A stretch of 64,000 nt of DNA from Pseudofabraea citricarpa (lineage: Eukaryota > Ascomycota > Leotiomycetes > Helotiales > Dermateaceae): assembly GCA_029641185.1 (NCBI GenBank), contig JAPWGK010000003.1, forward strand, positions 558,001 to 622,000. The letters are read 5' to 3'. The position numbers and the translations under genes are program-made. Below the pieces are notes generated by a model. That model had not been told where the DNA came from, did no database searches, and saw only the letters and a list, made by a program, of their open reading frames with translations. Below, in pieces: positions 4,342 through 36,570 of this stretch (position 1 is the stretch's first letter; each line of letters opens with the position of its first letter).

Positions 4342-6137
4342 ATGAGTTTCTTACAGTCATTCCTAGAACGAGTTGGAGTGAAGGAGATTGTGTTCTTCAT
4401 ATTGGCATCTTTCCTCTTCAAATGGGTCTTTTCTTTGGTGACCGATCCCCTAAGAGATATTCCTGGCCCCTTCGCGGCAAGATACACAAAGCTATGGCTC
4501 ATGAACCAATACTGGAAAGGTGATTTTCAGAACACTAATATAGACCTGCACGAGAAGTATGGTAAGTGGAACAAACTCAAATTGAAAGTCAAAGTCAAGG
4601 ATGAAGCTTATAATATTAGGTCCGATTGTTCGCATTGCTCCAAACCAGTACAGCATCGATGACCCGAATGCTGCGAAGATTATTTATGGCCATGGAACAC
4701 ATTTTGTAAAGGTTAGACAGAAGTCCTTGAAAAAAGGGCATCAATACTTATATTTTCACTACTGCAGAATTCTTGGTACCTGCCTTGGGGAAATGCAGAC
4801 CCAGCCTCCAAAAACCTTTTCAATGATCTAGATCCGAAGAGCCACAGCGAGCTTCGTCGTAAAACAGCTTCTCCCTACTCAATGTCTAGCTTGATCTCAT
4901 ATGAGCCATATGTCGACGAATGCACATCGACTCTGCTTCAACGGCTGTGGGAGCTATCTGATTCGGGTGCAACTTTCGACATGGGTCACTGGTTTCAATG
5001 TTATGCATTTGAAATGATCGGGAAAATAACCGTACGTTTGAGCTCGCTCTGTCGCTCCGAAGCATATTAATTCTCGAAAATAGTTTTCTAAATCCCTTGG
5101 GTTCTTGAACTCCGGCGAAGACATGCATGGAATCATGGAACAACTAGAACAGGGATCATTATATGCAAGCATTGTTGGGCTCTATCCATCGCTCCATCAG
5201 CCCCTTCTAACACTTATGCAAAAACTGAGTCGTGGGGTTCCAAAAGGACCTGCGTTTATCGATGCATATTCCAATGAGTTGATCGAGGCTCGCAAGCACG
5301 AAAAGGTAAATGATGAGGGGCCGTCCGACTTCATCGCAAAGTTCTTGGCTGTCCAGAAAGAAAATCCGGCCAAGATGACGGACAGAGATATTCGAGTATC
5401 GGCAGGATCCAATGTTGGTGCTGGATCGGATACAACATCCATTACATTGAGCGCAATCCTTTACTACCTGTGCAAGAATCCGTCGACCATGACCAAGCTT
5501 CGACAAGAATTAGATGATGCCACCAATTCTGGTTTGATTTCTGACCCCATCACTTTTCAACAGGCTCAGACCTTACCATATTTGCAAGCCGTTGTCAAGG
5601 AAGGTCTTCGCATGCACCCAGCAACTGGATTCATAATGCCGAGAATTGTCCCGAAAGGCGGCAAGGAGATCACTGGTCGTTACTTTCCCGAAGGGGTATG
5701 TTTTCAGCTATTATAACAATCTATACTGTCCGACAACTGACTGATCCTTGCAGACAACGGTGGGCATCAATTCATGGGTAGCACATCGCAACAAACAGGT
5801 ATTCGGTAGCGATGCATACCTTTTCAAGCCGGAAAGATGGCTGGAGAAAGAAAGTTCCAGTCAACTTGATGCTTATTTCTTTGCCGTAAGCACTCTCATT
5901 CTTGAAGCTGATTTCCCACAGTGTGCTAATCATAAGTGATGGATTTAGTTTGGTCAAGGTTCTCGCACATGCATTGGAAAGAATATTAGCTTGCTTGAAA
6001 TCTCCAAGGCAATCCCACAAGTCGTGCGTCACATCGATTTTCAACTCGAAAATGAAGAGGAATGGACTTGTTCGAATCGTTGGTTTGTCAAGCCTAAAAA
6101 CTTCACTTGCCGAGCTACAAAGAGATCATTGCATTGA
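4342..6137 (+). CDS. Cytochrome P450, pisatin demethylase-like, 502 aa
   Basis: Exons: 4342-4561, 4620-4711, 4768-5031, 5084-5695, 5754-5885 and 5949-6137; all phases agree and the frame is open throughout. The product is a microsomal haem monooxygenase. An N-terminal membrane anchor (about residues 10-28) is followed by a proline hinge (DIPGPFAARY). The I-helix motif GAGSDTTS lies near residue 305, KEGLRMHP (the ExxR motif) near 365, the PERW motif near 425, and the haem loop FGQGSRTCIG at 441-450 with Cys448 as haem ligand. Sequence flavour is that of the fungal pisatin-demethylase group. Those enzymes demethylate plant phenolics or tailor secondary metabolites, but the substrate cannot be read from sequence. 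One donor (GTTAGA, 4712) is weak; the other sites are standard. No pseudogene signs. Confidence 0.92.
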
Positions 6138-8134: not shown

Positions 8135-10047
8135 AGGGAATAGAATTGTTTGGGAGTTTGGAACTTGTCACAGGCGTACTTTGGATGAACGGTGGATTAA
8201 TGAGATACCTTGGGATGCAATTGAGATGAATTAGACGATTAGTGTATTTTGAAAGTCATCAAATGAGTGCAATTAATACTACACCTTCATAAAACTTATG
8301 GCGAGGTGATTTATCGAGGTGAATTCCCAAATCAGCCAGATGAATGTCAGATAAGGAACATTAGTAGCCATTTCGTAAACACTTCTTTAAAGGTAATGTT
8401 TCTCCCCGAACTATAATTCTCTATTTTGTCGACTTGAAATTAATAACCAAGGGGCAAATACAGAATAAGAGCTAGAACCCCTATCAAATCAATGCCAAAC
8501 ATCTGAAATGAAATCAAATACGCCCATATTTCTACCACATCACATATTATCCTGACCCTTAAACGGTTGTATATAAAAGACGTAAGACTGAAAAGGAAAA
8601 AGAAGGAATGAAATACCACCAGAACAATGAACAAAACAAATGATGGTCTAGATATAGTGATCTAAAGGCAAAGCGAAGTGGTATGTAAGTAAAAGTAATT
8701 AGTCGTTGCATTTAATAGTGCGGAAGTGCTGCGACGATACGGTATGTCCCATATATTAATTCCTCAAGTTCTTAATTGCTAGTATTGAGATTGGCAACAG
8801 TAAGGCTACTGACAGCAAGATTTTTAGAGTCTAGTTTGTTAGTGGGTAGTGCCAATATAGAGGGAGGTGGGAAGTTGAATTCTCTAGAGAGGTTTCGGCC
8901 GCGTGTGTGGTGATGCGATGCGTAGAAGGTTGGTCTATTAGTCTACCGCTACTGGGAGACTATATGGCCGAGGCTCTAGTCTAGCGTCGTCTGTCCCGTG
9001 ACAGTTACCGTGACAGAAGGGGAAAGATATTCGTTGTCTTGTGCAAGTGAGATTCAGCTCTCTTCGTTGTTTTGTTGATGCTTTGTGATCGAGGTTGAAG
9101 TAAATTTCAAATCGAGTAGTGTTCCTGAATCCCTTAGGCAGATGCCTAAAACTACTAGCTACTTATGAGCAGGCCTTAGAGTAGTAAGCAGGTTGTCATG
9201 GGCCATAAACCATTCCAAGTATGGTTAATTGGCTTATTTTTATGGCTCTATCACTCTTCTATGCCATTCTCTGGTCTTCGATTCCATTGTGCCATTCAGA
9301 TACAACATAAAGGTGGTAGAAGACAAATATTTGCAGCTTGTAATAGGGGGTGATATAGTCACCGTCGCAAGAAGAATAAAGCCATCTCCCAAAATAGAGA
9401 AGTTATGGTTTATTTTTCAAGAAAGTTATCCTAGCTTTTCCAGACAGGTGGGAACGTAAGAGGCTGCTGATACCCCGCAACCATCTCAATACCACATGAA
9501 ATCACGCGGCCAAAGAATTTTGAGGCTAGGTTTGGACCAGAGTGTAAATAGCCTGTTTACTAAAGCCCAGATATGGAAGATTACATTGTGGGGAAAGAGA
9601 TTAAGCATATCGGCATGTACCGGCATTCGTTCCACAGCCGGCCGGATCTGTTGCTTGTCGGCTATTCTCAATTTACCCAGTGCGGGAAGTCTGGGGTAAA
9701 CAATACATTAAAATTACTTAATCAAGGGACCTATCAGATCTATCCTTTCATATACCACCTGTACTTACCCTCCATCTGAGTTATCTAGTTCTCCATAATA
9801 GATTGTTATCTGCCCCTGAAACTTGGCAGGAGTTACCGCTTTTGTAACCATGCGATCAAAGGTAGTAATCATGATAGATTAGGCACGGCTGAATTGGAAG
9901 CCACAACTCTCTGGATCCGGTACGCCGAGGGACTAGAATTGAAAAGGTATATTTGAAGGCTGAGATTTCACTCAAGCTGAGATTTTTGACAGGATACCTA
10001 AAAACGAATCTGCATATTGGTTCTTCTAACTCAACAATCTCTTCATC
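8135..10047. other. 1.9 kb intergenic region, no gene recognised
   Basis: Only short frames without protein character are seen. The last 100 bases (TATATTTG near 9943, followed by a pyrimidine-rich leader) are the likely core promoter of the esterase gene. Confidence 0.45.
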
Positions 10048-11074
10048 ATGTTGTTACCAGCCGCGGCTCTACTTCTTGCAAGCCAAGCATTCGCCTCTAA
10101 ACTTGAAGTTGAAGAGCGCCAAACTAGTTGCCCTAATATCCATATCTTCGGCGCAAGAGAAACCACTGCACCAGCAGGATATGGCACGGCCGGCGTTGTC
10201 GTCAACCTGGTCTTGAACGCCAATCCTGGCTCTACAGCCGAAGCAATCAATTATCCGGCATGTGGTGGTCAATCTAGCTGCGGTGGTGTCAGTTATGCCA
10301 ATTCAGCTCTGCAAGGCACCGCAGCTGCTGCTTCAGCTGTGAATGCATTCAACACCAGATGCCCAAACAGTTTACTGGTCTTGGTCGGATACTCACAGGT
10401 AAAATTATTCTGCTATTCATTTCACTAGAGATAAATACTGATTGTGTTCAGGGTGGTCAAATTTTTGACAATGCCTTCTGTGGAGGTGGTGACACAAATA
10501 TTGGCCTTGGGAATACTGCTGTCCCCATCCAAGCTTCTGCCATCAACCAGATTAAGGCAGTCATCTTGATGGGAGACCCAAGACATATCCCTGGTCTACC
10601 ATATAACGTTGGCACCTGCCAAGCATCAGGAGTAAGTCATGAATCAACATTCTTTTCAGCTCGCTTATTTTTTCACTCACACTTCCATCTGAACTCAATC
10701 TAACGAACCCCTTACAGTTTGCACCCCGACCAGCGGGCTTTGTCTGCCCTTCTGCAAGTAAGGTCCAATCATATTGCGATGCCCCCGATCCATACTGCTG
10801 TAATGGAAACAACCAGGCTGTTCATCAAGGCTACGGAAGTACATATGGCCAAGCAGCTTTGACTTTCGTCCAGAAACAGTTGAGCGCCTCACCTGGTTCC
10901 GGAACTACTGCCGTCCCAGGAACAACCACTGCAGGAGGAACCACACCGACTCCGGGTGCGGGAACGGTAGCTCGTTACGGACAATGTGGTGGCCAAGGTT
11001 ACACAGGCCCCACTGTTTGTGTCAGCCCGTACACATGCACTGCTGCGAATGCTTATTACTCGCAATGCTTGTAA
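10048..11074 (+). CDS. Acetylxylan esterase (CE5) with C-terminal CBM1, 295 aa
   Basis: Exons 10048-10398, 10452-10631 and 10718-11074 join in phase 0. A signal peptide (about residues 1-16) is followed by a CE5 alpha/beta-hydrolase domain closely resembling Penicillium AXE II. The nucleophile is in GYSQGG (Ser116, split by intron 1), the acid in [10 protein letters not shown] and the histidine in AVHQGYG. The conserved cysteines [13 protein letters not shown] are present. A Thr/Gly/Pro linker (about 225-258) leads to a fungal cellulose-binding domain ([11 protein letters not shown]...[12 protein letters not shown]). The enzyme is secreted, removes acetyl groups from xylan and is targeted to plant cell wall by the CBM1. 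It fits a plant-associated or litter-degrading lifestyle. Confidence 0.94.
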
Positions 11075-11664: not shown

Positions 11665-12638
11665 TCAAGGGATAGCTTCATAAATTGTATCACCTCTCTT
11701 CGGTGGTTGTAAGAAATCTTTCGGCACAGCAGCAGGGATTTGTCTCTCCTCGGCCCAACTTCTGATAGCATCGAAATTTTTGCATTTGTGGTCGGTGTTG
11801 AAATCGACAAATGCTTTCGGGGCATGAGGGTCCCACCACACTTGTCCAAGAAGTCCAGTATCGGGTTGGCACATGAGTTGTTGTCGGATGATATCGAGAC
11901 AGTGAGACACGTGGTAGCGTACGATATTATCGTCATTTGTAAATGCACCTTCCCCTTTCGCCTTGTAGTAGTCGTGGTTATAATACAGTGATTGTCGAAG
12001 GAGATTTAGACAATGCAAGTGATGCAAGCCCTCGACATTCGCTGGGTAGCCGCCTCCGTATTTTTGATTGATCTTGACCTGGTCGGGCTGTAAACCGGTC
12101 GCAGCGGCTTCGCTTTCTGGGACGGCCAAACTTCTATCTGTGAAGGTTTCACAATTAGATACGCTTCTGAAATATTTGGTATTTGAGCTTACAGTTTACG
12201 CCCAGGGAGCTCCATGCCGCATCCACTTCAGGACCCGCATCTTGCCGGAAGATATTTTCCTTCAGCAGTGACCCGTTGAATCTGACAATATGGACCGAGT
12301 TGTCGACTTCTTTGAGAATTGGAGCTGCTGGACTCAGTATTACTCCGTTTTACTTAAGACAGCAACTTACAGTATTCTTGGCTGTGGGCAGCACATAGCG
12401 AATTTTCATTTACCACCCATCGAGTACCAATCCACGCCCCAAGACCAACGAGACAAGTTGATATAATTGGGATCAACGCTATATACAACCAGCGTAGATT
12501 TCTTTTTCGGGGGCTGGGCTTGTATGACGGCTCTGAACCATCTGAAAGAAGAGTCTCGTAGTCTTCTGAACGAGAATCATGATCACTGATCTCGCTCTTG
12601 TCTGTCAAAGGATTATACATTTTGTTTGAGGGATTCAT
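11665..12638 (-). CDS. UstYa family (DUF3328) oxidase, 290 aa
   Basis: Exons in transcript order: 12638-12371, 12324-12193 and 12137-11665; phases match. A cytoplasmic N-terminus (about 45 residues) is followed by one membrane helix (LYIALIPIISTCLVGLGAWI, near residues 50-69), then the lumenal DUF3328 domain. That domain has both diagnostic HxxHC motifs, HHLHC and HVSHC. Proteins of this family act in ustiloxin, phomopsin, asperipin and cyclochlorotine biosynthesis, where they oxidatively cyclise peptides at Tyr side chains or oxygenate intermediates. The start at 12638 gives the usual family length; a second Met lies six codons later. The gene is divergent from the Tyr-rich repeat precursor at 14150, which suggests they work together, but that is inference. 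Confidence 0.9.
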
Positions 12639-14149
12639 TAAGACGAGAGGACTCAACACAGAGAAATGGAAGAGGGACTACTGAACCCGTGGTTTAGAAG
12701 AAACCAGAGACTGTAAATCAGCCGACTAGCCGGAGCAGAGTTTCTAGCTTTCAACGTCACACAGCTGTGCAAGTGCTATATAAAGCCACTTCTCGCATGT
12801 TCAAATGATACGATCACGTCAAGGCCTGTAACACGAAGTGCGATGACGCACAAAGCTGTTTGCGTTCCACAATTCGTGCTAACTCGGCGTGTTTGCGAAG
12901 ATGTAATACGAAGGAAATATTGGAAGCCTTGTGGAATATAGCGGGGGTGGCTTCTGGCAATAAGCTTACAGAGAGCTACCGCAGTAAAGTACGTGCTGTA
13001 GCGCCTTGGCTCAGTGGTGTCGGCACAGGCGGGGTGGCGTCTTATGTGCTGGCCTACAGTGGAGACGACCGCTATCGATAACGATTCAGTGATTGGAGTG
13101 CCTGAAGCTCTAGGGAAAGATCTTCACGTACTGAATGCTTTTTCTGATTCTGTTGACTTTCCGCTATGCAGAATCACACCAGAACATATTCAACAGAACA
13201 ACATCATTGCCACGGTATTTGGAATTCAGTCTCAAACAAACAACAAATCCTGCTCCAACTGCCGATACAGTCTCATGCCAAGCTAGAATTGATTACTGCA
13301 GAAGTCACGATGCACAATGATCTACACGATACGAGACCGAACTTACGAGGATGTTGGATTTTGGGCCTGGCAAACATCATCGCTAACCAAGACCCCGCAC
13401 TCGTATGATCCATGTCTAGCAGTCCCCCCACCATAAGATGGATAAGCTTATGCAAAAATAGCATCACACTACATGCGGACCATTAATATAAGCTTTTTGA
13501 TACGAGAGGCTCTTAAGAAGGTACTTTAGTAGGTAGGCATAAGGTCAGCTACTATTGGCGGTGTGGTAGTATGTGAAGCCCATGTCCATGTTCGGACGAG
13601 GTTTGGGGATAGCAGATTGGCTTAGGGCTATTAGTTCGGATCTGTCAGCCAGGTTTACTTTAGTTGCTGAGGCATTACTTCATGTCTCTCTCCTTGCCGA
13701 CAGTAGCCAAGTGTTTGCAGTGCAGAATGCAGATACGACATGCTCAGCTGAGCTTCCAAAGGTCGGCTTCTGCAATGGTGTTTGCTCCATACGTACAATT
13801 TAGGCGATCATACACTGTCCTAGAATATTCTGCATCGAAAAGCACGAAATCGAGCTGCTGACTGATTGGTCACTTTGGCCATCATCCCCATGTTCCATTC
13901 AAGCTGACTGGGCTCATCGGAGGACGCAAGGCATAGTACCAGCATGCTATGGCGATGTTGTCAAGCTTGTCCGTATATCGTCATATTCAGCCTTTCCGAT
14001 GCAAGTGCAGAAGAATGGCGTCTCAGTGAGCTGTTTTCTATATAACCCCTCATAAGCACCTGCATAATAAGCATCTCATCCATTCTCTCCATCCTCTCCA
14101 TCCCCTCCTCACTTCACACTACTTTTCTACTCTTCTACAATCCTCAATC
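12639..14149. other. 1.5 kb bidirectional promoter region between UstYa-type gene and peptide precursor
   Basis: The two flanking genes are transcribed away from each other. A TATATAAA motif at about 12777-12784 lies 140 bases upstream of the minus-strand start, and another core promoter precedes the precursor gene. The short frames inside show no recognisable domain. A shared upstream region of this length could carry common regulator sites, which I cannot identify. Confidence 0.5.
14039..14149 (+). promoter_or_regulatory. Core promoter and leader of the repeat peptide precursor
   Basis: TATATAA at 14039-14045 lies about 105 bases before the ATG. It is followed by a strongly pyrimidine-rich stretch (about 14080-14140), a typical layout of strongly expressed ascomycete genes. 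No binding sites were identified. Confidence 0.5.
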
Positions 14150-15357
14150 ATGCTCTTCGACACTCGCCTCATCACACTTCTGGCTCTTGCCTCAGTTGGT
14201 TTTGTTGCAGCTGCACCTGTTGCTCAGGATGCTGCCACTCCAGTAAAGCGAGAGGCTCAGCCAAATGAGGCTGCAAAAAGACAAGATTATGGGGATTATG
14301 GGGATTATGGTGACTATGGTGCATACGGAAGCTATGAAAATTATCCTTCGTCTTCATCGTCGTCAACTGCTACCCCAACTCCTACGGGATATGGTTCATA
14401 TGGTTCGTATGGAACATATAAGCGGGCCCCAAAAGCAGTAGCCGAGCCTGAAAAGCGTGCTGATTACGGAGATTATGGTGATTGTAAGTTGCTCCGAGAT
14501 ATCCCGAAGAACACATACTGAGACTCAATAGACGGGGACTACGGCTCGTACACTGACTACCCGGCTCCACCTCCCCCGAGCCCAACTCCAACCAATTATG
14601 GTTCATACGGTTCATACGGTACTTACAAGCGAGCACCAGAACCCATTCCTGCTCCCGTAGCCGAGCCGGAAAAGCGTGCTGATTATGGAGATTATGGCGA
14701 CTGTAAGTAGTTTCCACATGTTTTCAAAGCCAAAAACTAAAATTCGTTAGATGGGGCTTATGGCTCGTACACTGATTATCCCCCACCACCTCCTCCAAGT
14801 CCCACCCCAACCAACTATGGTTCGTATGGGTCTTATGGCCAATACAAGCGAGAACCCGAGGCCAATCCAGCTCCAGTTGCTGAACCGGAGGCCAAGGCTG
14901 CTCCAGTGGCGGAGCCAGAGAAGCGTGCCGATTACGGTGATTACGGCGATTGTACGTTTTTGAGTAATAAACTTCCAGATGACTTGATACTAACTCCGAT
15001 TACTAGACGGGGCTTATGGATCTTACACCAACTACCCTCCACCACCTCCTCCAAGTCCCACTCCAACCAACTATGGCTCTTACGGATCATACGGAACCTA
15101 TAAGCGCAACCCAGAAGCTAAGGCTGCTCCTGTAGCTGAGCCAGAGAAGCGTGCCGACTATGGAGACTATGGAGATTGTATGTTCTAAGTGACCGCCCCA
15201 GCGAGCAATTTTGACTAATCTTCCGCCGCTAGATGGTGCATATGGATCGTATACCAACTACCCTCCACCACCTCCACCATCCCCAACCCCAACAAACTAT
15301 GGATCTTACGGTTCATATGGCAGCTACAAGCGAGCCGCAGCAGAGGCTGCTGCATAA
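14150..15357 (+). CDS. Secreted Kex2-processed repeat precursor with five Tyr-rich cores, 333 aa (RiPP/KEP candidate)
   Basis: Exons: 14150-14483, 14532-14702, 14751-14951, 15007-15177 and 15233-15357. All four introns are phase 1 and fall in the same Tyr codon of each repeat. A signal peptide (about residues 1-21) precedes a short KR-bounded leader. The rest alternates five cores and acidic Ala/Pro/Glu spacers, every unit flanked by Lys-Arg (Kex2 sites). A typical core has 40 residues: ADYGDYGDYGAYGSY..., a PPPPPPSPTPT hinge, then NYGSYGSYGTY. Tyrosines fall at core positions 3, 6, 9, 12, 15, 18 and 31, 34, 37, 40. Core 1 has a Ser hinge and one extra YGD. Spacers (for example APEPIPAPVAEPE) are free of Tyr. 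This matches fungal Kex2-processed repeated proteins, the class that includes dikaritin precursors. With a UstYa-type gene next door, Tyr cross-linking is plausible. A secreted structural protein is the main alternative. Confidence 0.9.
14284..15336 (+). repeat. Five-unit coding repeat array, one repeat per exon
   Basis: Internal exons are 171, 201 and 171 bases; the longer one equals the unit plus a 30-base duplication in the spacer (an extra PVAEPEAKAA-type step). Introns are 48, 48, 55 and 55 bases. Units therefore seem to have spread by duplication of an exon-plus-intron block. The block is about 219-256 bases. Confidence 0.85.
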
Positions 15358-34890: not shown

Positions 34891-36570
34891 ATGGTTGCAC
34901 AGAGTCTTACCGTGACGCTGGTCACCACCTTTGCGACATGGCTGATTGGAAGGATCGTATGGCGACTGTTCTTCCACCCGCTGGCACGTTTTCCAGGGCC
35001 GAAGCTGGCGGCGGCTACGCACTGGTATGAGGGCTATTTTGATATTGTAAAGAAGGGCCAGTACACCTTCGAGATTGGGAAGATGCACAAAAGATATGGT
35101 ATGCGGAAGATCATGTGATTTCTGGCCGCCAGCGCTGATGTATCACGAAGGACCTATTGTCAGGATCGGCCCAGACGAGCTGCACATTCTCGATGCCGAG
35201 TACTACGAGAAGCTGTATGACAAGAGCAACCTGAAGGTCAACAAGTTTGCCTGGTTCTACTCCATGCTGGGCAACCCTCTGGCCACATTCCCGACCGTTA
35301 ATGCCGAAGTGCATCGCAAACGGAGAGCAGCCTTGAATCCCTTCTTCTCAATCAATGCCGTTGCAAAGTTACACCCGACAATCCAGGCGGCCGTCGACAA
35401 ATTATCCTCTCGCATGGATAAATGCGCTGCAGATAACCAACCGATTCCTCTTTTTTACGCCTATCGTTGCTTAACGGTTGACATAATCTCCGACTATGCA
35501 TTCGCCGGTCAGCTGGGAATGTTGGATCGAGATGATTGGGGAGAGTCCTTCTACTTTGCATGGCGTGCACTGTGGGAGATGTCGGGCTTGATTCGTCAAT
35601 TGCCATGGATGATGGATCTCATGATGGCCTTGCCTCGATGGGTGACAGCGGCGACCAACCCTCCAGCATTGGAGGTCATTGACATGATCTCCGCAACGGA
35701 CGAGCAAACACGCTTAGTCCTCGAGACATCACCGGAAGTTTACAATGCCAAACCTTACCCAACAATCATGTGGGGTATTGCCAACAATCCTGACTTGCCC
35801 CCAGAGGAAAAGACTTTCAAGAGATTAGCTGTCGAAGCCAACAGCATTCTTGCCGCTGGCTTTGAGACCACTGCTGGTATTTTAACTCTCATGACATTCT
35901 TAGTTCTTGATTCGCCAGAGGTTCATTCGAGACTGAAGAAGGAGCTTGAAGTTGCCATTCCGGATCCTGCGGTTGTCCCTAACTGGCAGGTTTTGGAGAA
36001 ACTCCCATTATTGTCAGCAGTTGTGAAGGAAAGTTTAAGGTTAGTCTTCCTCTTAAATATGGGTTGCAGTTAAAGTGCTGACAGCTTGCTAGACTTGCCG
36101 TGGGAGCATTCTCTCGCTTGCCGAGGGTGTATCCGGAGCCGATGCAATATAAAGATTGGACAATTCCAGCAAATGTAATTTTAGATAGTTATTCCGTCCG
36201 ACGAAACTCTGACTGACTTTCTACGTAGACTGCTGTGGGGATGTCGAATCTCTTCATCTCCATGTCGCCTGAGATATTCCCAGAGCCAGAAGTGTTCAAC
36301 CCCGATCGTTGGGATCTGCCCGGCAGCCCGACTCGCAGGCGTCTAGAAAAGCACCTTCACCCATTTGGAGGTGGTTCTAGGCAATGTGTTGCTATAAATA
36401 TGGCATATGCCGAGTTGTACAGCGTCATCGCGACCACCATTCGTCGCTTTCCGAACATGGTTCTATTCGAGACCGATAAGAGGGATATGGAGTTTGTACA
36501 TGATTATTTTGCGGGTGCAGCGAGGCATGAGCGGGGCGGTTTGAAGGTTAAATTAGCAAAGGAAGTGTAG
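34891..36570 (+). CDS. Cytochrome P450, trichodiene oxygenase-like, 506 aa
   Basis: Exons: 34891-35098, 35151-36039, 36093-36174 and 36229-36570. An N-terminal membrane anchor is followed by [21 protein letters not shown], typical of the CYP58-like (trichodiene oxygenase, pyripyropene P450) group. The haem-domain motifs are all present: I-helix [19 protein letters not shown] (ExxR), NPDRW, and the haem loop [10 protein letters not shown] with Cys446. Two residues after that cysteine there is Ala448 where most P450s have Gly; the rest of the loop, INMAYAELY, is normal. The enzyme should sit in the ER membrane and hydroxylate or epoxidise a small hydrophobic molecule. Direct neighbours (methyltransferase, Zn2Cys6 regulator, ABCC transporter) suggest secondary metabolism. 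Confidence 0.92.

Follow-up and report, generated by a model that had tools for sequence, protein, structure and literature searches.

A tyrosine-ladder precursor gene beside a UstYa oxidase gene in Pseudofabraea citricarpa: a probable dikaritin-type locus with unusually long cores

What does a fungus make from a gene that encodes five long repeats with a tyrosine at every third residue? Such a gene is found in the 64,000-nucleotide stretch of the P. citricarpa genome analysed here (the window). The initial annotation, made from the sequence alone, had proposed a secreted precursor from which Kex2 releases peptides that form an unusual tyrosine ladder, either cross-linked or binding to metals or surfaces.

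By sequence criteria the gene is real. Its limits were given correctly, with the ATG at 14150 and the stop codon ending at 15357, but four introns, a UstYa gene next door and the dipeptide-built linkers between the cores had been overlooked. The genomic frame is broken by the introns, and splicing yields a protein of 333 amino acids (Table 1). The introns measure 48, 48, 55 and 55 nt and have canonical ends, with the donors GTAAGT, GTAAGT, GTACGT and GTATGT and TAG acceptors. In cores 2-5 they interrupt the repeat at the same place, within the third tyrosine codon (between T and AY, phase 1). All internal exons (171, 201 and 171 nt) are multiples of three with phase 1-1, so that cores could be gained or lost in frame. 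An unspliced read-through in the metagenome relative P0170 (YGNCKSI ... LDGDYGNYG) resembles, by eye and in protein letters, the window's YGDCKLL, which suggests that the intron place is conserved. The N-terminus is hydrophobic, with a best 12-residue Kyte-Doolittle mean of 2.4 (a hydropathy measure, not a signal-peptide prediction).

The spliced protein contains the five Lys-Arg-bounded cores as described, with 46, 40, 40, 40 and 40 residues. Repeats between Kex2 KR sites (here predicted ones) are the mark of Kex2-processed repeat proteins (KEPs), and tyrosine in the core, of which each has 10 or 11, is a feature of dikaritins. The tyrosine positions annotated for a typical core (3, 6, 9, 12, 15, 18, 31, 34, 37 and 40) are exact in cores 2-5; in core 1, tyrosines run from 3 to 21 and from 37 to 46 in steps of three. 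The hinge was described as PPPPPPSPTPT, which holds exactly for cores 3-5 but not for core 2 (APPPPSPTPT) or core 1 (SSSSSSTATPTPT). Taken together, the joined cores have 41 tyrosine pairs at spacing 3 (10,000 shuffles: mean 11.7, maximum 23), and one core alone has eight, a number reached in none of 100,000 shuffles.

A database match to a structural protein with this repeat had been named among the findings that would speak against a peptide precursor. The precursor matched no family in Pfam or in NCBIfam (a library for prokaryotes), and a two-core piece matched no PDB sequence at E <= 0.01; a known structural protein, with neither a family nor a solved-chain match, was thus rejected. No regular secondary structure is seen when a single-core relative is modelled by AlphaFold (mean pLDDT 64.5, pTM 0.17), a result that neither shows nor excludes a polyproline-II helix with the tyrosines on one face.

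The linkers are built from X-Ala and X-Pro dipeptides, which make up 32 of the 34 dipeptides in all linkers and both end pieces (20,000 shuffles: mean 19.9, maximum 28). Ste13-like dipeptidyl aminopeptidases act on dipeptides of this type. A single P_proprotein (Kex2-like) gene, covered by two adjoining exon matches, is present in the genome, together with DPPIV-type matches at two places.

Table 1. Features of the precursor/UstYa locus, the second ladder locus of the genome, and ladder precursors with UstYa relatives in other fungi. Positions are those of the window unless a contig or locus is named.
Feature	Position	Strand	Remarks
Tyrosine-ladder precursor gene	14150..15357	+	333 aa; 5 exons, splice model from sequence
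Precursor exons	14150-14483, 14532-14702, 14751-14951, 15007-15177, 15233-15357	+
Precursor introns	14484-14531, 14703-14750, 14952-15006, 15178-15232	+
Signal-like N-terminus MLFDTRLITLLALASVGFVAA	14150..14212	+	by hydropathy; cleavage place guessed by eye
Core 1	14282..14419	+	46 aa, 11 Tyr, Ser/Thr/Pro hinge, no intron
Core 2	14459..14627	+	40 aa, 10 Tyr; intron 14484-14531 inside
Core 3	14678..14845	+	40 aa, 10 Tyr; intron 14703-14750 inside
Core 4	14927..15101	+	40 aa, 10 Tyr; intron 14952-15006 inside
Core 5	15153..15327	+	40 aa, 10 Tyr; intron 15178-15232 inside
Four inter-core linkers	14426..15152	+	X-Ala/X-Pro dipeptides in register, ending EKR; cores 2-4 also lie in this stretch
Intergenic region UstYa/precursor	12639..14149	.	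1.5 kb, from gene positions
UstYa (DUF3328) oxidase gene	11665..12638	-	290 aa; PF11807, E 9.9e-63, 212.4 bits
UstYa exons	12638-12371, 12324-12193, 12137-11665	-	splice model
First HxxHC motif, H172-C176	12010..12024	-	invariant in 29/29 aligned relatives
Second HxxHC motif, H209-C213	11899..11913	-	invariant in 29/29 aligned relatives
Second ladder precursor	L041:1615-1905 = G000:C42:1032814-1033104	+	97 aa, one exon, single core
Amylocarpus encephaloides	contigs of 72,057		ladder and UstYa relative
Acephala macrosclerotiorum	contigs of 848,192		ladder and UstYa relative
Hymenoscyphus albidus	contigs of 88,757		locus tags ending 09474 and 09473, consecutive
Endocarpon pusillum	contigs of 107,020		locus tags ending 000526 and 000525, consecutive

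Dikaritin loci have a UstYa (DUF3328) gene near the multi-core precursor, and here one is found at 12638-11665. It is the direct neighbour of the precursor gene and is transcribed divergently from it; the intergenic region presumably holds both promoters. The genome has 46 UstYa matches at exon level, and no other of them lies inside the window. The protein is 90% identical to one of Phlyctema vagabunda (Dermateaceae, Helotiales). UstYs are described as using a dicopper site for Tyr-O-Cbeta ethers (PMC12186524). No PDB sequence match was obtained for UstYa, and a model of the Phlyctema protein (mean pLDDT 71.1, pTM 0.54) had no PDB match at E <= 0.001 (best E 1.6). In public records many UstYa relatives among the matches listed are called "Tat pathway signal sequence", apparently a misannotation that has spread between records.

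A single-sequence search with the precursor retrieved seven proteins at E <= 0.001, P0007 among them. A profile search scored 7,997 candidates and yielded 55 ladder proteins at E <= 0.01. Those of them with a named host come from five classes: Leotiomycetes, Eurotiomycetes, Lecanoromycetes and Dothideomycetes, for each of which one host was checked, and Sordariomycetes, to which we assign Fusarium, Colletotrichum and Cryphonectria. At least three tyrosines are in step in all 55 and at least four in 52; 573 tyrosine pairs lie at distance 3 against 35 at distances 1, 2, 4 and 5 together, and 53 of the 55 exceed the maximum of 300 self-shuffles, figures that partly reflect ascertainment, the proteins having been found by a ladder profile. 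KR or RR soon follows the ladder in 46 of them, and in 45 there are two ladders with a hinge of 4-25 residues between (36% Pro overall). Two matches are unusual. In P0005 (Acephala macrosclerotiorum) the ladder precursor is broken by a multi-cysteine stretch (TGTVALGGQCSSSADCAGGANC...), and P0007, from a 2,434-base contig in ENA, has an acyltransferase domain (PF01757) and a C-terminal tyrosine ladder with KRALDWIKSKLE; the latter is probably a chimeric assembly.

The pairing with UstYa recurs in other fungi. With the UstYa protein as query, 420 proteins scored E <= 1e-60. In all four species shared by the 120 of them that were listed and the ladder proteins, the precursor and the UstYa relative are on contigs of the same length (Table 1). 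These four come from 14 named, contig-bearing ladder matches and belong to the Leotiomycetes and Eurotiomycetes, two of the five ladder-bearing classes; as evidence of linkage, contigs of equal length are strong but indirect. Because the UstYa gene is the divergent neighbour of the precursor and because the pairing recurs, the case for cross-linking is stronger than the initial annotation could have known. Most species represented among the 120 listed UstYa relatives (of 420), including Phlyctema vagabunda with the closest of those listed, nearly all in fact, yielded no ladder match. Short multi-intron genes may have escaped annotation in such genomes, or the partners may lie outside the approximately 8,000 candidates scored. 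Aspergillus and Penicillium had no ladder match among the 7,997 scored candidates although UstYa relatives from these genera were listed.

A 59-row tree groups the window UstYa with 32 database relatives and with two paralogues from the same genome, L010 and L013, in a clade supported at 99/99. L019 also falls into it, but its row is poorly filled, its branch long and its placement unsure; the remaining rows from the genome lie outside. The orthologue set is not strictly one branch, with three label changes in the tree. UstYa proteins of powdery mildews (Blumeria, Podosphaera, Erysiphe and Golovinomyces) are placed inside the Helotiales part of the clade.

The 5 kb beside L010, examined after the tree was made, contain a second ladder precursor gene, again divergent from its UstYa gene (Table 1). 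Its protein ends in RRALEYVKSLWS, and similar KR-...KR-[LI]W-S tails are found in five database relatives (P0129, P0134, P0140, P0141 and P0155), so that a short amphipathic tail peptide may come after the ladder in these proteins. A scan for four tyrosines in step over 209,555 bases (the loci, L031-L036 left out, and the window) found both ladder genes, one further match in L017 and one antisense in the ladder gene of the window. When the genome was searched at protein level with the window cores and with the second precursor, each query recovered just its own locus at the chosen cut-offs. The repeat adjoining the outer paralogue L013 is a non-ladder one of 34 residues (GIQGLHNYVTLKVKG...), and the other UstYa loci examined have repeats of about 13-20 residues (EDYVIPFD-type, EFPFPTYAGVEKR, DWIYPPPDRK and QAGYDQRALYVDDDEVLKKR). 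In this genome the ladder therefore goes with one UstYa branch and not with UstYa genes generally. One of these loci, L021 (G000:C42:1061629-1064871, minus strand), carries a UstYa-linked precursor with many EDYVIPFD/EDYVIPID repeats, which we take to be of the phomopsin core type; a tyrosinase match is on the same contig (C42:1074557-1075078).

A class of KEPs that have DUF3328 neighbours has been described: it comprises 1758 of 7878 KEPs, and the share of repeats that include a tyrosine is 65.6% in this class versus 38.2% in KEPs without such neighbours (PMC7329392). Precursor repeat units typically have 13 residues for ustiloxin, 14 for phomopsin and 8 for asperipin-2a (Umemura 2020, PMC7329392). 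The initial annotation had contrasted the window cores with dikaritin cores of 4-10 residues, which has to be qualified in that these precursor repeats are longer than the final products; likewise, a 40-mer could on its release still be an intermediate. As to the ladder itself, the initial annotation knew of no described RiPP with such a core, and a literature search likewise found no description in the texts within its reach (figures, supplements and most subscription articles lay beyond it).

In the case of asperipin-2a (AprA/AprY, Aspergillus flavus), the likeness to the window locus lies in a KR-type repeated precursor with one UstYa homologue. Its core FYYTGY carries ethers from tyrosine side chains to beta-carbons (PMC6514808), and the Y-T-G-Y step would equal the ladder spacing. 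On the other hand, this core has 6 residues in an 8-residue repeat, against 40-46 residues with 10-11 tyrosines in the window cores, and the asperipin-2a cluster has a transporter and a reductase (PMC6514808), neither of which was identified as a partner at the window. The FYYTGY core is absent from the window cores, and no asperipin-type reductase was recognised among the 20 window ORFs scanned. The ustiloxin and phomopsin pathways resemble the window locus in their Kex2-cut repeats (cleavage being predicted for the window precursor) and UstYa-type oxidases, and their signal peptide may have a counterpart in the signal-like N-terminus, but as described they have Y-x-I cores in repeats of 13 or 14 residues and need a tyrosinase. 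The window cores hold no Y-x-I core, and none of the 28 tyrosinase matches in the genome falls in the window.

Similar to the ladder are also the Y- and D-rich repeats of the KEP types G-5/P-1 and G-6 (PMC7329392), which we compare by description and not by sequence logos; these types could include the ladder core. A DUF3328 gene is nearby for 46 of 49 G-6 genes (PMC7329392, Table 2), and some of the genera are shared with our UstYa matches; however, G-6 lists Aspergillus and Penicillium, neither of which was matched in the ladder search. By description again, the peptides deduced for Rhizophagus irregularis KEPs are tyrosine-rich, with cyclisation raised as a question (PMC6339444), but this fungus belongs to a different phylum, for which Umemura 2020 detected no DUF3328 proteins (PMC7329392).

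We consider it likely that the window holds a minimal two-gene dikaritin-type RiPP locus, in which a Kex2-cut precursor with unusually long cores is oxidised by the adjoining UstYa. From the gene models derived from sequence, the pairing, the conservation of the ladder and the Kex2-like and DPP-like genes in the genome, we infer secretion, cleavage, the order of the steps, cross-linking with its chemistry, and the function of the ladder peptides as follows. The precursor would enter the secretory pathway, Kex2 would cut after the Lys-Arg pairs, and a Kex1-type carboxypeptidase would then remove Lys-Arg. A Ste13-type dipeptidyl aminopeptidase would digest the X-Ala/X-Pro linkers, after which five peptides with 40-46 residues would remain. 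Their ladder tyrosines would be oxidised by the membrane-anchored UstYa, most likely by joining the tyrosine phenol oxygen to a side-chain beta-carbon, to give cross-linked secreted peptides. This much of the initial RiPP reading, namely a Kex2-type precursor with an unusual tyrosine-ladder core that is a likely substrate for cross-linking, has support from the sequence.

How the tyrosines would be joined can be considered in the light of known UstYa products. Selanine A, from VLFYPSY, is a Leu-Tyr-Tyr di-ether, and the structure of the asperipin-2a macrocycle is called similar (PMC11253845); the second ring of asperipin-2a would span Tyr-x-x-Tyr and be 17-membered by our own atom count. At the window, UstYa could link ladder neighbours, pair the ladders across the hinge, or only desaturate or link a few residues. 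We put forward, as a tentative proposal that is possible rather than probable, that it forms successive ethers, each from a tyrosine phenol oxygen to the beta-carbon of the tyrosine three residues before, with many reactions per peptide, and that the product is an old, conserved RiPP for the fungus's own use and no toxin. Each 40-mer would then consist of two rods of linked 17-membered rings joined by the polyproline hinge, with 5 + 3 links, at most eight per 40-mer and at most nine in core 1. For core 4, the computed mass is 4291.776 Da unmodified and 4275.651 Da with all eight links. The other unmodified cores were computed at 4877.911 Da (core 1; 4860.885 Da as pyroglutamate), 4310.734 Da (core 2), 4319.771 Da (core 3) and 4277.760 Da (core 5), and every link would lower these values by 2.01565 Da; core 4 with eight links and core 5 with one would lie only about 0.09 Da apart. 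As to function, powdery mildews have lost most of their secondary metabolism, which makes a toxin role of the UstYa clade less likely; since this clade is broad and kept even in these fungi, a role at the fungus's own surface, in development or in signalling seems, judged from distribution, likelier than a host-specific toxin.

That the repeats arose by neutral tandem expansion inside an ordinary secreted protein, with no selected peptide product, is extremely unlikely. Tandem Repeats Finder does report a 9-nt array at 14285-14319 and a 219-nt repeat at 14436-14889. In the ungapped alignment of cores 2-5, however, 33 of 42 codon columns (KR included) vary only synonymously and 4 non-synonymously, TAT and TAC are mixed in 9 of the 10 tyrosine columns, and pairwise dN is 0.03-0.07 with dS at 2.3-3.4 in four of the six pairs and beyond estimation in the other two. 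This codon pattern led us to reject neutral expansion or slippage, and against it stand also the ladders in 55 database proteins and in the second, single-exon locus of the same genome. On codon evidence the ladder is kept by purifying selection, the repeats being old and the peptide sequence held.

A different fate of the selected peptides would be that the cores stay linear, or that extracellular peroxidases or laccases join them into a tyrosine-rich material of the wall or surface, UstYa making a small change, for instance a desaturation, or acting on another substrate. Tyr/Gly/Pro-rich low-complexity sequence does resemble structural proteins, and the AlphaFold model of the relative is without a fold. 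Furthermore, KEPs such as Rep1 of Ustilago are surface repellents (PMC7329392), and dehydroamino acids are also among the modifications that UstYa proteins can introduce (PMC10512285). Still, we regard this as unlikely, given that the UstYa pairing recurs in four of four checkable species and at the second locus of this genome and that the Tyr-x-x-Tyr step would match a ring of a known UstYa product. It is quite improbable that the locus makes an ordinary dikaritin, with a short piece of the 40-mer (e.g. one Tyr-x-x-Tyr unit) excised and cyclised and the rest serving as leader and follower. Although the Kex2-released 13-14-mers of ustiloxin are trimmed to a four-residue core (PMC6514808), the ladder here is conserved on both sides of the hinge, across relatives and between cores, and Pfam recognised no peptidase among the 20 window ORFs scanned. 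A dikaritin-type locus with long, UstYa-oxidised cores thus remains our preferred reading.

The window gave no RNA-family and no tRNA matches. Pfam, applied to 20 window ORFs, recognised cytochrome P450 pieces (5084-5716 and 35051-36073), a cutinase with CBM1, an MFS piece, an FMO-like protein, DUF3431, an OYE piece, a methyltransferase (below the cut-off), DUF6536 and a Zn-cluster regulator; 8 of the 20 had no family at E <= 0.001, and neither a tyrosinase nor a recognised peptidase was among them. The cutinase domain with its C-terminal CBM1 (10030-11074, plus strand) adjoins the UstYa gene. Between 30340 and 45262 there are OYE-type and methyltransferase-like (below the cut-off) ORFs, P450 pieces and, by eye, regulator-like and ABC-transporter-like ORFs, the two that were scanned having no Pfam match; this region is possibly another metabolic cluster. 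A larger biosynthetic cluster around the precursor was rejected, as nothing ties the other scanned ORFs to the precursor/UstYa pair.

Five dikaritins are reported in a 2022 review (PMC10512285), all from short cores, whereas the precursor/UstYa pair described here has 10-11 evenly spaced tyrosines per core. If every step of the ladder were linked, the product would represent a novel type of stapled peptide rod, and the ladder a good substrate for studying repeated action of the copper UstYa enzymes. The pair offers a sharp mass-spectrometric prediction. Together with its ladder relatives in five classes, in two of which the linkage to UstYa was checked, it points to a wide use of UstYa chemistry, of which we found no description, and similar gene pairs in other fungi mean that this kind of modified peptide may be widespread and so far undescribed. 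The wide distribution of the UstYa clade, which extends to powdery mildews, invites a search for a role in the fungus's own biology.
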